Shown here: positions 1,842 to 23,874 of the stretch, piece after piece | How positions within the stretch are numbered: position 1 is the stretch's first letter | Layout of the letters: the number at the start of each line of letters is the position of its first letter | From: a virus | Strand: one strand, 5' to 3' | Virus record (IMG/VR): IMGVR_UViG_3300021197_001259 | Location: 1-26,950 of that record | DNA length: 26,950 nt | Translations under genes and position numbers: made by a program | Notes under the pieces: generated by a model | Seen by the model: the letters and a program-made list of their open reading frames with translations, nothing else | Databases searched by the model: none | What the model was told of the DNA's origin: nothing

Positions 1842-2294
1842 TTATTCTTGCGACACGGTAATACGACCACTTGTAGCAGTTATATCAACAGATCCACCTT
1901 CGCACTTTACTGTGCAATAAAGCACATCAGTATCTTGAACAACAATAGGGTGTGCAATATGAAACGACACAATACATTTTGTTGTATCAAACTTAGCATC
2001 TGAATAAAGGCCAGTTCCAAAATGCACGATATCAGTAAATGCTGCATCTTTTGCTATTAGAATTTGAACTTCTTCTTTATCAGCTTTAGCAGGTACTGTT
2101 CCTGTTCCAACAAAAAGTATTTCTTCAATAGTTAAGGGACAATCTGCACCGGTGTTAAATGGTATGTTAAGATCTGAAACGGCTATTTGTGCATTTTCAG
2201 CTATTACCCAAGTATTATCCCATACAGCATTGTTATTAATCCCATCTGCCCAAGTTATGGTTGTTGTAGTTCTTGCATGTTTTTGTATTGGCAT
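1842..2294 (-). CDS. Beta-rich structural protein (150 aa)
   Basis: Starts at ATG 2294 in a TAATG junction with the 58-aa basic gene upstream; the ribosome site (GAGGAAGAAG) is inside the last codons of that gene. The N-terminus MPIQKHARTTTTITWADG is polar; the remainder alternates hydrophobic and polar residues and contains three cysteines. The C-terminal strand pair VVQDTDVLYCTVK ... ITATSGRITVSQE matches the same region of the following 147-aa protein. Predicted all-beta virion component, function unknown. Located at the start of the fibre/appendage cluster. Confidence 0.75.
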   Translation of the reverse strand: MPIQKHARTTTTITWADGINNNAVWDNTWVIAENAQIAVSDLNIPFNTGADCPLTIEEILFVGTGTVPAKADKEEVQILIAKDAAFTDIVHFGTGLYSDAKFDTTKCIVSFHIAHPIVVQDTDVLYCTVKCEGGSVDITATSGRITVSQE

Positions 2295-2470
2295 TACTTC
2301 TTCCTCTTCTTTTTTAAGTATTTTATTGCTTTTTCTTTCGCCTTTTCTGGCTTCACCTTAGGCATCTTTTTTTTCCTAACAGCATCCAGGTCGGATTTAG
2401 TTATCTTGTTGCGCGGTTCAGTTATCCTCGCTAACTTCTTCTGCTTCGGGCTGTATTTCTTGAATGGCAT
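2294..2470 (-). CDS. Small lysine-rich protein (58 aa)
   Basis: This 58-aa gene reads MPFKKYSPKQKKLARITEPR at its start and ends KYLKKKRKK. By my count 21 Lys and 4 Arg make up over 40% of the protein. ATG at 2470 follows GGAGG with a 5-base spacer. It overlaps the last 53 bases of the 56-aa membrane-protein gene in another frame, and its own stop forms TAATG with the next gene. The KKYSPKQKKLA opening is familiar to me from small phage proteins of unknown function, recalled without checking. Nucleic-acid binding is plausible from charge alone; no defined domain is visible. Confidence 0.7.
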   Translation of the reverse strand: MPFKKYSPKQKKLARITEPRNKITKSDLDAVRKKKMPKVKPEKAKEKAIKYLKKKRKK

Positions 2471-2588
2471 CGTCGCCTCCTGTTGGTTGTAGAGTGCATG
2501 TTCCCCATTGGCTACCTATTACCAAGGCACCACCTATAAAAGCTACACTAAGTTTATTCTCGTTAATCCAGTTAATAATCTTTTCCAT
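2418..2588 (-). CDS. Small single-pass membrane protein (56 aa), holin-like size
   Basis: A 56-aa frame from ATG 2588, joined by TAATG to the preceding basic gene; the ribosome site AGAGGAAGAAG is formed by that gene's last codons. The N-terminal segment is amphipathic (MEKIINWINENK), residues about 13-29 are a hydrophobic stretch (LSVAFIGGALVIGSQWG) able to span a membrane, and residues 39-56 are strongly acidic (DDAIQEIQPEAEEVSEDN). No lipobox. Size and single span would fit a small holin or another inner-membrane phage protein, but with one span and no endolysin in view this is only a possibility. The acidic tail is in marked contrast to its polybasic neighbours. Confidence 0.6.
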   Translation of the reverse strand: MEKIINWINENKLSVAFIGGALVIGSQWGTCTLQPTGGDDAIQEIQPEAEEVSEDN

Positions 2589-2836
2589 TACTTCTTCCTC
2601 TTATAACCTGTTTTTTTCTTTGTTGATTTCTTCTTTGATTTAGATGGAAAGTCGATTGCACGGGCTTTGCCGCCTCGCAAAACAGAATTAACACGAGCCA
2701 TTGCCCACTGATGGGATGACATTCCTTTGCGTGATCCTGAAGATGCATATGCTGCTAAACCTTTATCATAACTTTTCTTAAGCTGTGATGCCGTAAATTT
2801 TTTACTTTTTGCGGCTTTTTTTCTTAAGGTTCCCAT
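2588..2836 (-). CDS. Small basic protein with AYASSGSRKGMSSHQWAMAR motif (82 aa)
   Basis: I place the start at ATG 2836, preceded by AAAGGGAAGCGTA, rather than further upstream, because the longer version would sit wholly inside the previous gene in another frame. The 82-aa product has a basic head (MGTLRKKAAKSKK), a central conserved-looking core (residues about 17-60: SQLKKSYDKGLAAY, SSGSRKGMSSHQWAMARVNS, LRGGKARAID) and a polylysine tail ending TGYKRKK. The core has helical periodicity and Trp/His. I recall similar cores in marine phage and large-virus small proteins, unverified. Function unknown; DNA binding or packaging with the genome is possible. Confidence 0.7.
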   Translation of the reverse strand: MGTLRKKAAKSKKFTASQLKKSYDKGLAAYASSGSRKGMSSHQWAMARVNSVLRGGKARAIDFPSKSKKKSTKKKTGYKRKK

Positions 2837-3032
2837 TACGCTTCCCTTTCGTTTTTTTGCTTTTGCTTTTGGCACGGACTTTCTCCTCCATTTCTTCTCG
2901 CATCTTAAATGCTGCTTGTTTGTTTCCTGATTTGTAAAGTTTAGCAGCACGAGCCAGCTTTCTTGCACGAGCTGACCCTTTTGGTGCTGCATACTGTTTC
3001 GGTAAAGCCTTTACCTTTGTTTTCTTTTTCAC
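2802..3032 (-). CDS. Basic helical small protein with GTG start (76 aa)
   Basis: The frame opens with GTG at 3032, forming a GTGA overlap with the TGA of the 44-aa gene, and an AAAGG site lies 7 bases ahead; no ATG lies near the N-terminus. The 76-aa product begins with a Lys-rich stretch, has a helical middle (ARARKLARAAKLYKSGNKQA then AFKMREEMEEKVR, residues about 21-53) and ends GNLKKKSRKK. The middle looks amphipathic with mixed charge, unlike the flanking polybasic ends. No known domain seen. Expression depends on translational coupling, so the start is less certain than others. Confidence 0.6.
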   Translation of the reverse strand: MKKKTKVKALPKQYAAPKGSARARKLARAAKLYKSGNKQAAFKMREEMEEKVRAKSKSKKTKGKRNGNLKKKSRKK

Positions 3033-3163
3033 TTTTTAGCCTTTCTTTTTGTGCTTTTCTTCTTCTTAGCTGCTTTCTTCTTCTTCAATCTGTCTGCTGC
3101 TTTCTTTGCTGCTGCTTTTCCCTTCTTGGTATAAGCATATTTTTTTCCACCTACTTTTGGCAT
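3029..3163 (-). CDS. Histone-tail-like lysine-rich peptide (44 aa)
   Basis: ATG 3163 has one of the best ribosome sites in the window (AGGAGG, then TCATC). The 44-aa product starts MPKVGGKKYAYTKKGKAAAK and continues as nearly pure Lys/Ala: 20 Lys and 2 Arg against one Asp. This resembles the tails of H1-type histones and bacterial Lys/Ala-rich nucleoid proteins in composition only. The start overlaps the end of the 42-aa gene by 13 bases. Likely to bind DNA or RNA through charge; whether it is packaged, condenses DNA or acts in the host is unknown. Confidence 0.7.
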   Translation of the reverse strand: MPKVGGKKYAYTKKGKAAAKKAADRLKKKKAAKKKKSTKRKAKK

Positions 3164-3279
3164 GATGACCTCCTACAGTCGTTATGTTCCTCACAATGAG
3201 GATGAATTTTTGGCTTCCTGGCTGGAGGCCGTTTTGGAATCGGTTTCTTTGGCTTGGCTGGGACTATATGCTTTGGCAT
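3151..3279 (-). CDS. Pro/Lys-rich small protein with Cys/His tail (42 aa)
   Basis: The gene starts at ATG 3279 in a TAATG junction, with GAGGAG at the correct distance; a longer upstream frame was rejected because it lacks its own site and lies inside the previous gene. The 42-aa product has a Pro-Lys-Arg head (MPKHIVPAKPKKPIPKRPPA) and a C-terminal part with Cys29, His32, Cys35 and Cys40 (HCEEHNDCRRSSCQK), spacing that could hold a metal ion, though it is too short to name a known finger. The Arg36-Arg37 codons AGG AGG also serve as the ribosome site for the next gene. Confidence 0.6.
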   Translation of the reverse strand: MPKHIVPAKPKKPIPKRPPARKPKIHPHCEEHNDCRRSSCQK

Positions 3280-3587
3280 TATTTTCTCCTCTTGCGTGCT
3301 ACGCCGCCTTTTGTGCCTGTTGTTTTCTTTTTGCCACCTGCTGACCACAAGTCGCGACAAGCCCAATATGATGCTGTTAGTTTTGATTTCTTCTTATCAC
3401 AACCATGTCTGGCTCTAAATGATTTACGAGCACCCTTGCTGTAGTTATGTCCATAACCTGTTGCACCATAATGTATGATTTTTTCTTTACCACCTTCACA
3501 GGCCTTAACCACCTTTTTCTTCTTTGGATTTGGTGATTTACGAGGCTTGTTGCATTTCATCTTCTTTTTATTCAGCTTTGTAGCCAT
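3279..3587 (-). CDS. Basic Cys-containing phage protein with SFRARHGC / YWACR motifs (102 aa)
   Basis: A 102-aa protein from ATG 3587 behind GGAGAAG, overlapping the giant upstream gene by 20 bases. Order: Lys-rich head (MATKLNKKKMKCNKPRKSPN), then VKACEGGKEKIIHYGATGYG, then GARKSFRARHGCDKKKSKLT, then ASYWACRDLW, then a Lys/Arg tail. The ACEGGKEKIIxxG, SFRARHxC and YWxCRxW blocks look like a compact conserved domain; I recall the same blocks in small proteins of cyanophages and other marine viruses, without an assigned function. Four Cys (12, 30, 63 and one in YWAC) could form a zinc site. Its place directly after the ejection proteins suggests a late or virion role. Confidence 0.75.
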   Translation of the reverse strand: MATKLNKKKMKCNKPRKSPNPKKKKVVKACEGGKEKIIHYGATGYGHNYSKGARKSFRARHGCDKKKSKLTASYWACRDLWSAGGKKKTTGTKGGVARKRRK

Positions 3588-6500
3588 AGCTCTTCTCCAT
3601 TTCTTTAAGTTTGCTTGCTGCCTGTCTAATTTGTCTGTCTCTTACTTCCCATTCTTTTGGCACTCTAACTGGAGACTGCCTACCAAATAAATATAATGCT
3701 GGTGTGCCGTTTTCTAAGTATCCAAACTCAGATCCTGGCGGAACCACACCACCTGCGATCAATGCTGCTGTTGCATCTTGCCCCATTCTTTGTGCGCCTA
3801 ATGTTGCCATTAACAGAGCATCTAACCTGAAGTTATTATAACCCGATTTAGAAGCAAATCGATATTGAAAGTCTGAGAATTTGGCAGAACCAGGAACCTG
3901 TGATCCGATAGGTCGCACTTCTAAGTCATAGCGATCAACATAATATTCTGCAGGTGATTCTGTATCAGGCCTTCCTAACCCCATCGATCTTAGCGCTATG
4001 TTTTCACCAGGCAATCCAGCTTGTCCTGATAGAGCTTGACCTACATCAGTCATAAAAGGTGCATCAATATTACCTGCCATGTGTTGTGCTTGTAGAATTT
4101 GATAGACTGTTTTTGGTGGCACACCTTTTTTATAGTCCGGATCTAAATCTCTTATTACATCTAAAACAGGTAGATAAAAGAAATCCATTGCAGCATCTAC
4201 TGAGGTCGTTACGGTTGTTTCTGGATCGTTTTCATACACATTCATACCGAATCCAATAGCTTGTGAATACATCATCATGTTTGATGTCCAAGGATTACGG
4301 AAGTATGTATCAACATAGTCGCTGTCAGGATCTGATTTTGTCAAGAAGAACGATTGTAATGTTCTATCACCTACATATTCATAAGCACCATAATAACGAG
4401 CAGCTGATCTTTGCATTTGACTTAACTTACCTAAGCGTGTTATAGCATTAGGTTTAAATAGAGCTTTCACTGTTTCAGCAGATGTTCTATACATAAATGA
4501 TAAGTAAAGCAAACCACGAGCACCAGCTTGCTTTGCAATCGGTGGTAATGCACCATAATCTAAGAATGCATTCTTTGCAATATCAGCAGCTTGTTCAACA
4601 GTTTTACCTTGTTTTAGCTGGTCAAAATACATTGCTTCACGAAAGTAAAAGTCTGTATCCATTGCAAACTTCATATGTGGCGAACTCTTCTTAGCTCTAA
4701 ATCCAGCCTGTGATGCTATTAAGTCATCAGCTGCATACATTATACTTTTAGCATTTTGGCCACCTAATTTGGCAGCATCTGCTCTTGCAATAGCTTTTAT
4801 ATCGGCCAACAGCACATCACTTAGTTGTAATGCAGAGTTTGATGATCCAATACTTACTCTATTAAGTGATTCATAAGCTTGTCGATAAGTTATATTAAGA
4901 GAACCAGGTATGATTTCATCAGGTGCGGTTTGCACCATCTTTCTAAAATATCTTGCACCGGTCGGGTTAGCTAATCTGTTTAAGGAAAACTTCGATGCAT
5001 TTGCATTATCAAGTGTTATAGCTGCTATAGCAGGTGCAGATGCAATGTTTTCCATTTGATAACGAAAGTTTGGTAGATACTTACCACCAAGTTGGCCTGA
5101 AACAAATGATCGACGAATATCACCTAATGTTAAACCTAATATATTCATAACTGAATTTAATGCATTTTGGTTTTCTGGTCTCGATAGCTGTTCAAACCCT
5201 CTGGCCAGCTGACCTAATGATTTAGGATCGCCTAACATTGTTTTGAGTTCGTTTAGTTCTGCTCTTGTATTTGCACCCACAATACCAATAAACTGTTCAT
5301 TGAATAGTGTTTCTTGTGTCAAACCTATTTGTTGCGCAAATACAACAGGATCTTCAGCATTACCTAAACCAGCAGCACGAACTTGATTGTATAAGTCAGA
5401 ATCTCTACGACCATAAAAAGCACGAAGTCTATCTTCAACACCAGCCCTTCCAGTTGCTCTTCCTATACCTGGCAGCTGCAGCTGGTCTTTCTCACCATAA
5501 ATATATCTAACAGTTTTTGCTACTTCATCATTAGTATAGCCTGAGGATTTCATTAGCGCACTAAACTCTTCTCTTGTTGCAAGATATGGATTGTATGTTA
5601 TTGGATCTTGAATTCTGTTAATAGCAGTTCGAAGAATTAGGTCAGCTTCTTTCTTAGATTCTACACGAATACTACTTCTTGCAACCTTTTCTGATATGAC
5701 TCTTTCAATGCGTCGTCTTGCCATACCATTTGCTGCAGCTACAATAAATGTGCCTTCAAAATCAATACCTGTGTTAATACTAGCAGGTAATCCAGCCTTC
5801 ACTAAATCTTCTGGCACTGACACATTTCTTCCCATTGCAACAGTTGCTGTTGTATCTGCATATCTTCTGTTTTGTGCTAAGAATGTAGCCATAACTGTTT
5901 TGTAATCATCAACAGACTTGATTGCTACTTCACCTACTTCATCAACAAACTTTAAAGATATCGCTAAATCAGCCAAGGCAGCTGCATCCTGTGCTTCTAA
6001 TGCACCAAAGGTAATACGACCTAAATCTTGTAGTTGAGCTGCTCCTATGGCCAACTCTGTGTCTGGAAGAATACCTAATGTAATACCGCTTGGATCGCTT
6101 TTCTGGCTTTGCACCATCATTTGAAACAATCCTCTTTCTTGTATGTTGCCTACACCTGGGTTTTCTGATGCCCATTTAATATAGCCTCTAACAGTAGGTG
6201 TTATAACTTGTTCGATTCTTTCTACTTCACCTTTTGCTGCTATTACTGCTTGACGCATTTGTTGTTGTTCAAATGTGACAGCATAAACCGGTGCTTCTGT
6301 TATATTAAATGCACGACCAACATATGTTTGACCAACAACTTCTTTCGCTTTGTTGATTAACTGAGCAGGTGATCGTCTAATACCAAAAGCATTAAGTCCT
6401 AATCTTCCTAATTCAGCTATAGTTTGGCGACCATTACGAGTAGCAACCAAACCTATCATTGCACCAGAACCAAGATCACCAGCCAGTGTAGCAATAGAAC

Positions 6501-9500
6501 CAGCAACAACACCTGGTTGAAAGTCTTTTAATCTAAGTTCTGGAGCTTTTGCTATCTTTTCACCAATAACACCACTATTAAAGAAAAGATCTGCACGATT
6601 ATTTGCACCTACTTGTAATGCTTCCATCTCTAAGATTCTTGCATCTAAATACATTTCTTCAGCAGCTGTAAGTGCTAAGTTATTGTCTGTTTTCTCGATG
6701 ATTGTTTGTAGCTTAACATCGCGTCTGAGTGTTTTATTAGATACACCTTTAAAATAATCTTCATATTTACCATCGACGCCACCATAAACTCTTTTTATAG
6801 TTTGATGTCGATCTAATAAATCTTTTTGATTCTTCTTCATCCACTTTGTTGAAACACTTATGCGATCTGTAAGTGCTGTATATTTATCCAAGTTAAAGCG
6901 TGCAAGTCTTTCAGCACCTGCTTCTACTAACTGTTCATATGAAGCAGCAGATTCTGCAGGTCTTATGACACCTGATGCTTTTATTGGTGCTTTAGCATCA
7001 GCAGCTACACCTGGTAAAGCGCTAAGTGGTGCTATTGTATTATCTGCTCTACCGTATCTTAATCCACCTTCTCTTAAAACAATGCGCGCCATATCTCCAT
7101 ACACATCGTCTTTTGTTGCCATCTTTTGTATGACACCATCCATATCATCAGCAAAACGAGCTAAACCATCTGGTGATAATCCATCAGCTTTATCTAATAG
7201 ATCTTGTGTCATTTGGTATTGACGACCATTCATTTGATCTAAAGCTCTTATCTCATCGTCTGGTGTAGAAGCTTTAGCTCTTATTTCTAATGGCTCATCC
7301 GCAAACCGTGCTGATAAAAAGTCATCATAAACACTTTGACCTACTTCTTGTGGTGTTAAGTCAGCTTTACGAACTTCTTCTAAATTTACTTTATGTATAT
7401 CAGTTATATCGTCTTGCAATCTTTTAGAAAACTTAGGAAATACTTTTGTATATTCTTGCTGTGTATAAGAAACTTTATTACCTAAGTTATCGATTAATAC
7501 TGCTTTATCAGGCTCACTCAAATACGGAAGTGATCTATCGATTTGTTTTGCAGTTCGTTGCTGTGCTTTTATTAGTGCTGATCTATTAGCTTTAGGAACA
7601 GCCGTTTCAGCTACTTGCGTTGCTTCTGCTCTTACTTGATCGCCTCTTTCAAACCCCTTAGCTCTTCTTACTCTTGCTCTTGCAATATCTTTTGCAGCTT
7701 CTACAGCGACAATATTGTCAGCGGCTTTTTCAGCTAAATAAGTGTTTGTGCTAAATGTCGATTCAAGCATTCTGGGTGGTCTTAATACATCTGCTGCAGC
7801 AGTTCCTTTAACAGCACCTTTAAGTGAAGATATATCAGCAGCTGCTCCAATAGCTTTACCTGCTACACCATAACCTGATTTAGCAATATAACCTGGCACT
7901 TTTAATAGTGTGCCGTAAGGTATAAATATTTCTGCTGCTGTTCCTATCAAAAAGTTTTGGTCTTGTTGATCTAATCCAATGTCTGGTCGTGATGGATCTG
8001 TTGAAGGTGCTTGTCCGTATTTAGCGAAAGCATTACCCATTGTATAACCGGTTGCTGTTTCTAATGCAACTTCTTTTAAATAAGCATCAATAGGAAAGTA
8101 GCCTTCTGCTTCTTCTGTTAAATCAATAGAAGCTGCATCATAAAGCTGTCCTTTTGTAGAATTCTTTGGCTCACCTATTACCGCTTCTAATCCTTCTTCT
8201 AATGGGTTGTTAATCATTCTAAAAGGTAATCCAATATCACGAATGATTGTCATACCCATAGATTCTGTAAGCTCACCAAACTTTTCTTCTGTTGTTGCAT
8301 CTTGGACTACTGGCAACACAGATGTCATAGCAAATTCTTTTACCTGTGCAATCAAATCTTCACTAGGTAGTGAAAACTCTGGTTCTGATAACAACTTATC
8401 TCTATCGTAATAGTGTCGTGGCTCCATACTTAAAACATCACGAATCTCAGTTCTTACATTTTCTACTGCTTTTGTATCGATATAGTTCTGAAAGTTAGGA
8501 TGCCTGATTGCATTAATGTTTGTGCTTAATACATCATCTCTAATTTGTTGCTTTTCTGATTCTAACTGTGATAAAAATAGCTTCTTAGCGATAGGATATG
8601 TATCTCTTTGTTCTTTAGGTAGTGCATAATAATCATCACTATACAGCGCAAAGTTATAGTTGGCTATCCTTGATCGATCTTGTGCATCTTTTTGTTGCAT
8701 CTCTTCGCGTGAAACTAATGTCTGAGGTTTTAGCGCTTCAAACATGGCTTCACCAACACCCATATCTCTAATAGATTCTGGATCTCTTTGTAATCTACCA
8801 CCTACAAAATCTTGTCCTGGTGTTCTAAATGTAAGTGGTGTTGGTGGCATATTGAATGGATCGCCGGCTTGTCTTGCTCTACCTGGACCGGTATAAGAAT
8901 CCATTCGTAATCTGGCTCTTTTTTCTGCTGTGTCTGCTTGTCTGGCTACTGCATCAGCTTGTTGTTCCAAAGCAGCTGTATCTGTGTTTGGAAAGTCTTT
9001 TATAAGCTGTGCCAGTGCTTGCTCTTTAACTTGTGCCTGTGTAGGAAAGCCTTCAAACTCTTGTTGTTGTGCTATGCTTTGTCTTGTTTTCGATCTTCGT
9101 AGTTCCAAGTCGTTTAATGTAGGTCGTCGTTCATTGCGAACCATCACACTTTCAGATTCAGGCACACCTTTTCTGAGTGTAGGTGTTATGATTTGTTCGT
9201 TTTTATATTTTTCATAAGATCTTAATTCAGCAGCGTCTCTATTTTTTCTGGCTTCTTGTAGTTCTAATGCACCAGGTGGCTTAAAACCCATCAGTGCTTC
9301 ATAGTTTTTTGCTGACTCTATCTTCTTTTCTTCTTCTTCTATATCTTTATAAACCTCATCTACCATTTCTTCTTCTGTAAAATATAGATTTATACCAGGA
9401 AATGTAGGTTCTGCTCTTTGTGTGCGTTGTTGTAAGTTAGCAACAGACTTTTTAAACATTTCTTTTTGAAGATCTGTGAGCTCCATAGTGGGTGGTGGTG

Positions 9501-9702
9501 GTGCAACAGGATCTGTGCCTTCTAACTCTGCTCTTTGCTCTTTGGCTTGTTGTTCTAATAACTGTCGCGACTCATTTTGAATTTGTCGATCCAACATTTT
9601 AGTATCATAATACTGAATAGCAGCAGCTTCACCAAACTCAGTCATTAAGCGTTGGTATTCTTCTTGTTCAGGTAATGTTAATAAATTCAGTTCTGGTGGC
9701 AT
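3568..9702 (-). CDS. Giant internal virion (ejection) protein, T7 gp16-like in position (2044 aa)
   Basis: At 2044 aa this is the largest gene, 23% of the window. ATG 9702 directly follows the TAA of the preceding gene, with GGGAAAATAA as ribosome site. The first ~330 residues are charged and helical, with a PPPPT run near 70. Ala/Gly-rich hydrophobic stretches occur near 600-620 (GTLLKVPGYIAKSGYGVAG) and 1060-1085 (VVAGSIATLAGDLGSGAMIG), and an aromatic C-terminal segment near 1730 (GLLYLSFMYRTSAETVKAL). Gene order (233, 662, 2044 aa) copies T7 genes 14-15-16, whose products leave the virion and span the host envelope during DNA entry. I see neither the Glu-Ser lytic transglycosylase motif found at the N-terminus of T7 gp16 nor RNA-polymerase motifs such as those of N4 virion polymerase. 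Role inferred from position and character. Confidence 0.75.
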   Translation of the reverse strand: MPPELNLLTLPEQEEYQRLMTEFGEAAAIQYYDTKMLDRQIQNESRQLLEQQAKEQRAELEGTDPVAPPPPTMELTDLQKEMFKKSVANLQQRTQRAEPTFPGINLYFTEEEMVDEVYKDIEEEEKKIESAKNYEALMGFKPPGALELQEARKNRDAAELRSYEKYKNEQIITPTLRKGVPESESVMVRNERRPTLNDLELRRSKTRQSIAQQQEFEGFPTQAQVKEQALAQLIKDFPNTDTAALEQQADAVARQADTAEKRARLRMDSYTGPGRARQAGDPFNMPPTPLTFRTPGQDFVGGRLQRDPESIRDMGVGEAMFEALKPQTLVSREEMQQKDAQDRSRIANYNFALYSDDYYALPKEQRDTYPIAKKLFLSQLESEKQQIRDDVLSTNINAIRHPNFQNYIDTKAVENVRTEIRDVLSMEPRHYYDRDKLLSEPEFSLPSEDLIAQVKEFAMTSVLPVVQDATTEEKFGELTESMGMTIIRDIGLPFRMINNPLEEGLEAVIGEPKNSTKGQLYDAASIDLTEEAEGYFPIDAYLKEVALETATGYTMGNAFAKYGQAPSTDPSRPDIGLDQQDQNFLIGTAAEIFIPYGTLLKVPGYIAKSGYGVAGKAIGAAADISSLKGAVKGTAAADVLRPPRMLESTFSTNTYLAEKAADNIVAVEAAKDIARARVRRAKGFERGDQVRAEATQVAETAVPKANRSALIKAQQRTAKQIDRSLPYLSEPDKAVLIDNLGNKVSYTQQEYTKVFPKFSKRLQDDITDIHKVNLEEVRKADLTPQEVGQSVYDDFLSARFADEPLEIRAKASTPDDEIRALDQMNGRQYQMTQDLLDKADGLSPDGLARFADDMDGVIQKMATKDDVYGDMARIVLREGGLRYGRADNTIAPLSALPGVAADAKAPIKASGVIRPAESAASYEQLVEAGAERLARFNLDKYTALTDRISVSTKWMKKNQKDLLDRHQTIKRVYGGVDGKYEDYFKGVSNKTLRRDVKLQTIIEKTDNNLALTAAEEMYLDARILEMEALQVGANNRADLFFNSGVIGEKIAKAPELRLKDFQPGVVAGSIATLAGDLGSGAMIGLVATRNGRQTIAELGRLGLNAFGIRRSPAQLINKAKEVVGQTYVGRAFNITEAPVYAVTFEQQQMRQAVIAAKGEVERIEQVITPTVRGYIKWASENPGVGNIQERGLFQMMVQSQKSDPSGITLGILPDTELAIGAAQLQDLGRITFGALEAQDAAALADLAISLKFVDEVGEVAIKSVDDYKTVMATFLAQNRRYADTTATVAMGRNVSVPEDLVKAGLPASINTGIDFEGTFIVAAANGMARRRIERVISEKVARSSIRVESKKEADLILRTAINRIQDPITYNPYLATREEFSALMKSSGYTNDEVAKTVRYIYGEKDQLQLPGIGRATGRAGVEDRLRAFYGRRDSDLYNQVRAAGLGNAEDPVVFAQQIGLTQETLFNEQFIGIVGANTRAELNELKTMLGDPKSLGQLARGFEQLSRPENQNALNSVMNILGLTLGDIRRSFVSGQLGGKYLPNFRYQMENIASAPAIAAITLDNANASKFSLNRLANPTGARYFRKMVQTAPDEIIPGSLNITYRQAYESLNRVSIGSSNSALQLSDVLLADIKAIARADAAKLGGQNAKSIMYAADDLIASQAGFRAKKSSPHMKFAMDTDFYFREAMYFDQLKQGKTVEQAADIAKNAFLDYGALPPIAKQAGARGLLYLSFMYRTSAETVKALFKPNAITRLGKLSQMQRSAARYYGAYEYVGDRTLQSFFLTKSDPDSDYVDTYFRNPWTSNMMMYSQAIGFGMNVYENDPETTVTTSVDAAMDFFYLPVLDVIRDLDPDYKKGVPPKTVYQILQAQHMAGNIDAPFMTDVGQALSGQAGLPGENIALRSMGLGRPDTESPAEYYVDRYDLEVRPIGSQVPGSAKFSDFQYRFASKSGYNNFRLDALLMATLGAQRMGQDATAALIAGGVVPPGSEFGYLENGTPALYLFGRQSPVRVPKEWEVRDRQIRQAASKLKEMEKSYGYKAE

Positions 9703-21696: not shown

Positions 21697-22191
21697 CTAT
21701 ACATCTTGCATGTCTTTCGACACAAAAGTCTTTGCTGCAGCTGCAATCTTATCGCCACCTGCTTCTTTTAAGTTCTTTGTCCATTCTTCGCCTACTTTGT
21801 CTTGTGCTGTCAAACGCTCAGCTTGCTCATATATGTGTTGATCTGCTACAGATTGTGAAACTTCTTTGTATCCATTGCTTTCTGCATACTCATACATAGC
21901 GCGCTTGTCTTCAAAGTATCTACCAAATGCTGTAGAATAGTGTCCTTGACTATTATGCACACCATTAGCATGTAATCCTTTACCCATGATTGCAAAACTG
22001 GGTGGCACATAAACTTGTTCGACCAGATTACCACAACCTTCTGAGTTTTCTGTGTCATCCTTAGGGTTGAACTGCATTGGTCGATCATAATAGTCTGTTT
22101 GACCACAAATCATCTCTTCTAGATCGTCATAACTACACAGAACTTCCCATTCTGTTTGACACTTCTTGCATTCTACTTTATAAAAAGCCAT
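21697..22191 (-). CDS. Zinc-ribbon protein, FmdB-like N-terminus (164 aa)
   Basis: ATG 22191, ribosome site AGGAG somewhat distant (9 bases). The N-terminus MAFYKVECKKCQTEWEV has a Cys8-x-x-Cys11 knuckle, and Cys29 and Cys53 (SEGCGNLVEQVY) can complete a zinc site; this arrangement is like the FmdB-type zinc ribbons frequently found between portal and scaffold genes of phages. A second part (AFGRYFEDKRAMYEYAESNG, then YKEVSQSVADQHIYEQAERL) is helical and may be a linker to head proteins. No nuclease motif. Function unknown; nucleic-acid or protein binding through the ribbon is plausible. Confidence 0.72.
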   Translation of the reverse strand: MAFYKVECKKCQTEWEVLCSYDDLEEMICGQTDYYDRPMQFNPKDDTENSEGCGNLVEQVYVPPSFAIMGKGLHANGVHNSQGHYSTAFGRYFEDKRAMYEYAESNGYKEVSQSVADQHIYEQAERLTAQDKVGEEWTKNLKEAGGDKIAAAAKTFVSKDMQDV

Positions 22192-22203: not shown

Positions 22204-23874
22204 CTATGATATAGATGTGGCGCCTGGTAAGACACCTTGTAAATTAGCTGGGCCAGCTGGTGTTGATTGCATCATTTCTCGAGCATCTGGTTGCACCGCC
22301 GAACCTGCTACATTAGCTTTTGCAGCTGATGCTGCTTGTATTGCTTCTTGATTTTCTTTCGCTTCAATAACAAAATCTTCTGGTAAGCCTAAAGATCGCA
22401 CTAACTCTGCTAAAAGTGTTTCCTGAGGCACACCTAATGACTGCAGAAGTGGTATTGACTGTATAAACTCTCTCTTCTTTACCGATTCTGATAAGGGTGT
22501 AGAGGCTTGATCTTGTGCATAGATAAGAAAGTTTTCTTCAAGATCTTGTGGTCGAACAACCTCAGGACTATTACTAACCATAATCATATCAGCAGAGTTT
22601 TCGATCTCTAAGTAAAGCTGCAACATGTAAATATAAGTGCGACTTAATTCTTCAATCATGCTATCTCGCTCTCTTGCCAATCGGCCTACCTCTGACGAAG
22701 TATAAGCAGCAAGTGCAGCTATTTCTGTTGCTGAAGAACGAGTCGATTCACCACGAGTAAATGGTGCCAAGATGCTACCTTTATCTTTATCAGCTTGCAC
22801 TTGGTTGTAATACATCTGTAGTTCTGGTGGTGTTGGGTTCTGAGGTAATGCAGTCATGACACCAGCCAACGATTCTTCATCTACTTCCACAAACAAGCCA
22901 TCAATACCACTTGTAATCTGTGCCATTTGTTCTTCGTCAAGCACACCCTTCTTAACTAAATACTGTCGCGATGCTTTTCGCACTCCATTTGCTTGAAATG
23001 TTCTAATTAGATTAGTTTCATAGATCTGGTCATAGATTCTTCTCATTGCACTGTAGCCATCTATTGGTTTATCAGGCATCCTATTATAATAGAGCGGAAC
23101 TAAAGGGATCACAGCGTTATTCTGCGGATCTCTAAATGGTATCTCTTCACTCAACAAGAACTTCTCACCCATCTTCCAGTTAGGCGACCAAAAATACATC
23201 TGTTTAGTGTGTAAGTCATACAACTCTACAATCTCGATATAGCGATAATAGTCAAAGTCTTGCTCATAAAAGTCATTATCACGCTCATATTCTTCAGATC
23301 GAAACTTATCGAAGTAGTCTTCTTTTTCAATAGGCTCATATTCTTTATTACCAAACTTATGTCGAGCATCAATCATTGACATGTAGTAGTGATGACCAAC
23401 AAAACGCATGTCTTCATAACGCTTGGCATCTCTATCTAAGATTACTTCCCATGGTGCAATAGAGCAAACTGATATACGCTTATAGATGTCCTCGTTCATA
23501 TTAGGCATTAACTTCATAAAAGCCATAGGGTAAATAAGGGCAAGACGCGAAGCGTTCTCTATTTCCTTTCTCTGGTTCATTAAGAAATCATTTGCAAGAG
23601 CTTGTGCTTTCTTTGTATCACCTCGTCCTTTTAGTCCGGCTTTGAAGATAACACCTGGGTTTTTAGAAAAGAGTGAAGCAATATATGACTCAATATAGCC
23701 GTAGGCATCTGAGGTTTGCACATATTCAGACATAAGACCTACAGCTTTCTTATCCCAGAAGCGTGTAGCATAGGCTGACTTATAACGGTAAAGTTCATGT
23801 TTATAGTCATCCCAGTAGTCTGTGTGAGATTCTAATATTTGCTTAAGCAAACCAGGTGTCATTTTATATTTCAT
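22204..23874 (-). CDS. Portal protein (556 aa)
   Basis: ATG 23874 overlaps the TGA of terL (ATGA). Begins MKYKMTPGLLKQILESHTDY, with an N-terminal aromatic/charged region, then SYIASLFSKNPGVIFKAG typical of portal wings. Residues about 120-290 are rich in Tyr, Arg and Asp (ISVCSIAPWEVILDRDAKRY; YYRYIEIVELYDLHTKQMYF) and lead to NAVIPLVPLYYNRMPDKPID. The stem/crown helices include ILAPFTRGESTRSSATEIAA near 360-380, a portal-type long helix (SSEVGRLARERDSMIEELSR), and a Gln/Ala-rich C-terminus. Immediately after the large terminase, as in most tailed phages. Forms the dodecameric channel for DNA packaging and the site for the adaptor. Confidence 0.85.
   Translation of the reverse strand: MKYKMTPGLLKQILESHTDYWDDYKHELYRYKSAYATRFWDKKAVGLMSEYVQTSDAYGYIESYIASLFSKNPGVIFKAGLKGRGDTKKAQALANDFLMNQRKEIENASRLALIYPMAFMKLMPNMNEDIYKRISVCSIAPWEVILDRDAKRYEDMRFVGHHYYMSMIDARHKFGNKEYEPIEKEDYFDKFRSEEYERDNDFYEQDFDYYRYIEIVELYDLHTKQMYFWSPNWKMGEKFLLSEEIPFRDPQNNAVIPLVPLYYNRMPDKPIDGYSAMRRIYDQIYETNLIRTFQANGVRKASRQYLVKKGVLDEEQMAQITSGIDGLFVEVDEESLAGVMTALPQNPTPPELQMYYNQVQADKDKGSILAPFTRGESTRSSATEIAALAAYTSSEVGRLARERDSMIEELSRTYIYMLQLYLEIENSADMIMVSNSPEVVRPQDLEENFLIYAQDQASTPLSESVKKREFIQSIPLLQSLGVPQETLLAELVRSLGLPEDFVIEAKENQEAIQAASAAKANVAGSAVQPDAREMMQSTPAGPANLQGVLPGATSIS

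Follow-up and report, generated by a model that had tools for sequence, protein, structure and literature searches.

The window analysed here comprises 26,950 bases of the IMG/VR virus record IMGVR_UViG_3300021197_001259, possibly a fragment, and carries at positions 2294-3587 a row of seven coupled mini-genes on the minus strand. On balance we regard this cluster as a cassette of small, DNA-associating basic proteins which would be produced late, be loaded into the assembling head and come to lie inside the capsid together with the genome. A location in the head is suggested by gene neighbours, fusions and leader sequences of the same families in other phages, contact with DNA by the composition alone. 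Each protein would combine a short folded core, a beta-hairpin and two helices in the 102-amino acid (aa) protein and helices in the 82/95-aa protein, with Lys/Arg-rich tails. The core would dock on a part of the prohead, be it portal, protease, scaffold or internal core, and close to the portal or core the packaged DNA would be neutralised or organised by the tails; we infer late expression, head incorporation, DNA binding and this split between docking core and tails alike. In the following T, K, D and S denote the families of the 102-, 76-, 82/95- and 58-aa proteins, H is an extra small basic family, and L-numbers are labels of comparison contigs or loci, with L002, L004 and L091 as sister contigs.

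The seven genes lie downstream of a gene for a 2044-aa protein and are followed by a 150-aa gene, and all called genes of the window are located on the minus strand. All seven open reading frames (ORFs) listed in the initial annotation are present, and six of them encode strongly basic proteins: the products of 102, 42, 44, 76, 82, 56 and 58 aa have net charges of +30, +9, +21, +27, +24, -8 and +20 and Lys/Arg fractions of 0.33, 0.29, 0.50, 0.41, 0.32, 0.04 and 0.43, respectively, the 56-aa protein being acidic. With Lys/Arg contents of 29-50% and isoelectric points (pI) of 10.2-11.3 these six products are small and strongly basic in the manner of protamines. In the 20 other called genes of the window the Lys/Arg fraction amounts to 0.05-0.17 and the pI to 4-7 for almost all. 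A base-composition artefact was rejected, because only the genes of the cluster are basic and its guanine-cytosine content (40.6%) is near that of the window (39.1%). The gene given as 82 aa almost certainly starts at GTG 2875, which is preceded by the ribosome-site-like sequence GGAGGAG and results in 95 aa, and the start GTGCCAAAA with an upstream GGAG-type site is kept in L002 and L004. Stop/start overlaps and Shine-Dalgarno-like sequences were found for most of the seven genes. Promoter and terminator scans remained at or near chance level. The portal gene of the window places the cluster in the virion gene block, as the initial annotation had assumed.

Indications of a role in the head derive from the genomic context of the families, which recur in numerous other, unrelated phages from aquatic habitats. 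In about 70 loci T is located directly downstream of a T7-like portal gene (c0, phrog_449), and in 22 of these a scaffold gene (c1, phrog_1052/1018) is the next large gene after T. In 22 loci H is flanked by the scaffold gene and the gene of the major capsid protein (phrog_267). Six loci have D and T between a portal gene (phrog_145) and a gene for a MuF-type head morphogenesis protein (phrog_241), with K in the same interval in four, and K-D is positioned just upstream of a phrog_1216 portal gene in six loci, the family to which the portal of the window also belongs. In the cultured Prochlorococcus phage MED4-184 the order K-D-H-T is found between a head morphogenesis gene and the scaffold and capsid genes. 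Moreover, T is fused to head proteins. It forms the N-terminal part of a fusion with an XkdF-type prohead protease in Roseobacter phage CRP-6 and the C terminus of ICP1 gp125, after the XkdF protease domain (L251:3425-4261, Vibrio phage ICP1_2005_A), and in phage CL131 it is embedded in a portal-InPase-MuF protein between the portal and MuF domains. ICP1 gp125 is a predicted procapsid protease according to reviews, (PMC9040626, PMC7567579); its T domain is not mentioned in the passages on ICP1 that were examined. Fusions of another kind occur in T4-like phages: in Melnitz phages (L090:2834-4786) a cytidylyltransferase, D and T are united in one protein, and in HTVC008M (L085:1917-4108) a cytidylyltransferase is fused to D, with T in the adjacent gene.

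A further hint is provided by T4-like contigs in which basic proteins carry leaders resembling the capsid-targeting sequences of T4 internal proteins. The T4 proteins enter the prohead by means of leaders of 10-19 residues which are removed proteolytically, the leaders of IPII and IPIII being identical (PMC9026906). In L100, L121 and L144, K and D are each encoded behind a leader such as MNDLFLLEEFI(L/R)EALLDE, and L100 and L121 each have a further basic protein that follows such a leader. The leaders of K and D in L144 are identical at 18 of 21 residues. Two large T4-like contigs bearing D encode a gp21-type protease and gp23, and in one of these two the leader pattern occurs in two of 252 called genes, the D gene among them.

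When 1.7 Mb of collected loci, which are not independent since related contigs recur, were searched with profiles, one or more of the other families turned up in 64 of 80 D loci, namely T in 48, K in 46, S in 14 and H in two. Of the 110 partner matches 107 were situated at most 1 kb from D, and all were on the strand of D. The 76-, 82- and 102-aa families thus travel together. Several cassettes are accompanied by a small protein with a hydrophobic segment, i.e., the product of window 2418-2588, gp60 of HTVC111P (L087:5204-5395) and a phrog_20984 protein upstream of K-D (L122:39-494); a membrane partner is possible. Just downstream of T, L033 has a gene with a DNA methyltransferase-like sequence (L033:6500-7312), a place taken in the closely similar L032 by a further gene for a small basic protein. 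Chaperonin genes were also observed near T, namely groEL and a 10-kDa chaperonin gene side by side in an uncultured podovirus (MW202828, L083:410-2300) and a GroES gene in Roseobacter phage CRP-901 (L254).

Comparison with the sister contigs enabled a distinction between conserved and variable members of the cluster. L002 and L004 contain the 102-, 76-, 82-, 56- and 58-aa genes in the same order as the window, L091 keeps the 102-, 76- and 82-aa genes, and the order T-(PKK)-(H or 44-aa)-K-D is common to all four. After D, the 56-aa gene and then S follow in the window, L002 and L004. The 102-aa protein is 93% and 88% identical in sister contigs, and counterparts of the 56-aa protein in L002 and L004 are 68% and 51% identical. 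For the 102-aa gene the ratio of nonsynonymous to synonymous substitution rates (dN/dS) was 0.03 against L002 and 0.10 against L004, and for the 82-aa gene 0.09 against L002, with dS saturated against L004; these are pairwise values, and several of the dS values are near saturation. Both genes are therefore under strong purifying selection, whereas the values of the overlapping 56- and 58-aa genes are not simply readable. K occupies the same slot in L002, L004 and L091 and has relatives in HTVC111P, HTVC026P and MED4-184; S was found in L002, L004, L008, L055, L082 and others. The 42- and 44-aa genes have no sequence-conserved counterparts in the sister contigs. The slot of the former is filled by a Pro/Lys-rich ORF of 36-41 aa whose resemblance is compositional only, and the region of the latter is occupied in L002 and L091 by H, a different small basic protein. 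The 42-aa ORF obtained no family match in Pfam and phrog searches, and the 44-aa ORF matched phrog_33179 with an E value of 0.009. Chance ORFs were ruled out by frame conservation for T, K, D, the 56-aa gene and S, for which the proposed conservation of set and order was confirmed, and the 42- and 44-aa ORFs were excluded from this verdict.

The motifs of the 102- and 82-aa proteins had been considered conserved and unassigned. They are conserved, and both proteins could be assigned to families. The D product is a member of DUF5824 (PF19141), scoring above the Pfam cut-off (1.3e-9, 38.7 bits versus 25), and at least 600 relatives were obtained in one search. T belongs to phrog_7595 (8.7e-16, profile positions 9-96 of 96), matches part of phrog_220 'minor head protein and DNA pilot' (2.8e-13) and has relatives encoded by 211 IMG/VR stretches in one search; its core exhibits about 70% identity over 94 aa across distant phages. 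The only recurrent and at the same time best Pfam match of the T family is DUF5754 (21 of 31 diverse members, best E value 1.3e-5), which corresponds to Tlr6F (PMC12220804), a protein with no known function conserved in polinton-like viruses, virophages, Megavirales and some phages (PMC4642659). The T protein of the window scored 12.2 bits against DUF5754/Tlr6F (PF19058), below the cut-off of 27.4, and the best individually scored phage relative reached 23.8 bits (4.6e-5). As every member score seen was below the curated cut-off, a classification under DUF5754 was rejected; T may be a remote, sub-threshold relative, and its identity with Tlr6F is a lead. Zinc binding by the four Cys residues of the 102-aa protein was likewise set aside, since these are absent from many relatives, e.g., those of CL131 and L136. 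NCBIfam yielded nothing useful for the mini-genes, and searches of PDB sequences gave no convincing matches. The separate families are thus known yet uncharacterised (DUF5824, DUF5754/Tlr6F, phrog_7595) or unnamed (K, H, S), and the initial designation as an undescribed system was not upheld, given that families of the cluster have already been described, albeit with unknown function.

An AlphaFold2 model of T, with a predicted local distance difference test score of 82-87 in most of the core, consists of a beta-hairpin and two helices and matches viral predicted structures including the CL131 portal, CRP-6 gp55, an XkdF protein and ICP1 ORF125, names which were assigned by accession, length or name. 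Among proteins of eukaryotic viruses, Foldseek matched Tunisvirus V9SE36 (E value 2.2e-3, probability 1.00, template modelling scores 0.54/0.57) and, weakly, a protein of Chrysochromulina ericina virus (E value 0.31); both targets are at most candidate members of DUF5754. The AlphaFold2 model of D is helical; among its matches are DUF5824 proteins and a single ChaB-annotated phage protein, which T matched as well. Its match to an RNA polymerase holoenzyme chain (best Z 5.6, 52 residues, root-mean-square deviation 3.0 A) was read as a common helical arrangement.

Several observations speak against a cassette of proteins residing in the head. Foldseek and VIA-align detected no solved structure related to T, nor a convincing one related to the D model. 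None of the seven mini-gene proteins of the window carries the targeting-peptide pattern and no prohead protease was identified within the 27-kb window; the capsid-interior or DNA-associated roles suggested initially are favoured by the head-maturation fusions in other phages and by the targeting-like leaders in T4-like contigs. The rarity of the leader-like pattern, which occurred in 11 of 15,826 background segments, is descriptive because the pattern was composed after the examples had been seen. Some pelagiphage cassettes adjoin endolysin genes instead of head genes, and T lies near a tail spike gene in a Flavobacterium phage. Literature searches turned up no virion proteomics, mass-spectrometry or DNA-binding data for these families.

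Three other explanations were weighed. The proteins may travel in the head, as T4 internal proteins do, and be ejected as host-takeover or counter-defence factors, their task in the infected cell being to coat incoming DNA or to block nucleases or functions of the host nucleoid. In T4 the internal proteins bear capsid-targeting sequences, and fusions to these are delivered into the host (PMC9026906), the repertoires of the cassettes are variable and of a mix-and-match type, as an arms race would give, and the cassette comes after the presumed ejection protein of 2044 aa. The high conservation of the T core over distant phages is, however, unlike that of typical arms-race proteins, and its fusion partners, prohead protease and portal, are assembly machinery; we therefore consider this explanation unlikely. 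The same fusions, N-terminal in CRP-6, C-terminal in ICP1 and between portal and MuF in CL131, together with the location of H between scaffold and capsid genes, would also fit assembly chaperones or scaffold-core factors which act in procapsid formation only, as interaction modules for protease, portal or scaffold, and whose charge is there for contacts among proteins of the prohead core instead of DNA condensation. This is rather improbable in our view, since very high, low-complexity Lys/Arg contents in the tails of five unrelated small families suggest contact with nucleic acid, and single small genes occur away from head genes too.

In the pelagiphages HTVC111P and HTVC026P, K and D are found next to lysis genes together with a small membrane protein, and HTVC111P has H as well. 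Such cassettes adjoining endolysin or phosphodiesterase genes, and the hydrophobic segment in the 56-aa member, would be in line with small regulators that bind RNA or DNA, or with lysis-associated proteins, in either case with no role in the head. We regard this as very improbable, as portal, scaffold, capsid and head-morphogenesis genes are the commonest neighbours across several phage types and fusions to head proteins are added to these. Proteins loaded into the head and lying there with the genome are the explanation we favour for the cluster, and this would account for a large group of tiny basic genes that lack an annotation in phages of aquatic habitats.

It is conceivable, and we propose it tentatively, that these families belong to a modular toolkit of small basic head-interior proteins common to tailed phages and eukaryotic giant and polinton-like viruses, with Tlr6F as the most widespread element and a capsid-interior function of Tlr6F. 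These genome-packing or head-loading domains would then have passed between viruses with unrelated capsids, in some cases as mini-genes in a row, as in the window, and in others fused into multidomain proteins. The conservation of Tlr6F among widely differing DNA viruses has been on record since at least 2015 (PMC4642659), and the connection of a Tlr6F-related domain with prohead protease, portal and head-gene neighbourhoods in culturable phages, including ICP1, renders its role directly testable. In a limited search of the open-access literature no description of the cassette, of its association with genes for prohead protease, portal and scaffold or of leader-bearing K and D was found.

Table 1. 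Features of the window and leader-bearing proteins of T4-like contigs.
Feature	Position	Strand	Remark
102-aa basic protein, family T	3279..3587	-	remotely DUF5754/Tlr6F-like (candidate); beta-hairpin and two helices predicted
42-aa Pro/Lys/Arg-rich ORF with Cys	3151..3279	-	positional and compositional counterpart only, in sister contigs
44-aa ORF, 50% Lys/Arg	3029..3163	-	no recognised counterpart in L002, L004
76-aa basic protein, family K (LPKqY...LYKsG)	2802..3032	-	GTG start overlaps preceding stop
95-aa basic protein, family D (DUF5824)	2588..2875	-	initial annotation: 82 aa from ATG 2836
56-aa acidic protein, one hydrophobic segment	2418..2588	-	counterparts in L002, L004
58-aa basic protein, family S (MPySKYSpKQKKLA...KIT..DL)	2294..2470	-	start inside 56-aa gene
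2044-aa protein, presumed internal/ejection virion protein	3568..9702	-	directly upstream; stop overlaps 102-aa start
Portal protein	22204..23874	-	phrog_1216, 4.6e-9
Leader-bearing basic proteins	L100 2705, 3103, 3375; L144 3046, 3321; L121 2644, 3084, 3321		leaders mostly end ..EALLDE

Searches of Pfam, NCBIfam and 50,697 phage records gave no match for the 2044-aa protein, and its C-terminal 500 aa have one IMG/VR relative with 75% identity. Using the portal or the 2044-aa protein, no close cultured relatives of the window phage were found. Downstream of the portal gene a 164-aa Cys-rich protein, possibly a zinc ribbon, is encoded (window 21697-22191), and its gene precedes the 166- and 291-aa genes and the presumed capsid gene.

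Besides DUF5754/Tlr6F, three known systems are comparable to the cluster. With DUF5824 (PF19141, phrog_28338) the D protein of the window shares the SSGSR..QWAMARVNS core; it differs in covering profile positions 63-118 of 127 only and in being encoded by a stand-alone small gene within a cassette. In freshwater T7-like phages, DUF5872-like cassettes after the portal gene similarly consist of T and then further small basic genes, but the partner families are others, and most of these T loci lack D, K and H. In one of them (L010), two adjacent basic mini-genes after portal and T (6300-6437 and 6437-6673) match successive parts of DUF5872, a giant-virus family, below the cut-off, as if a fused giant-virus protein had been split into two phage genes. 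T4 internal proteins (PMC9026906) are likewise small, and in the T4-like contigs K and D stand behind near-identical leaders with a possible cleavage site (..E); the cleavage in these contigs is predicted from sequence, and the proteins of the window differ in having no leader.

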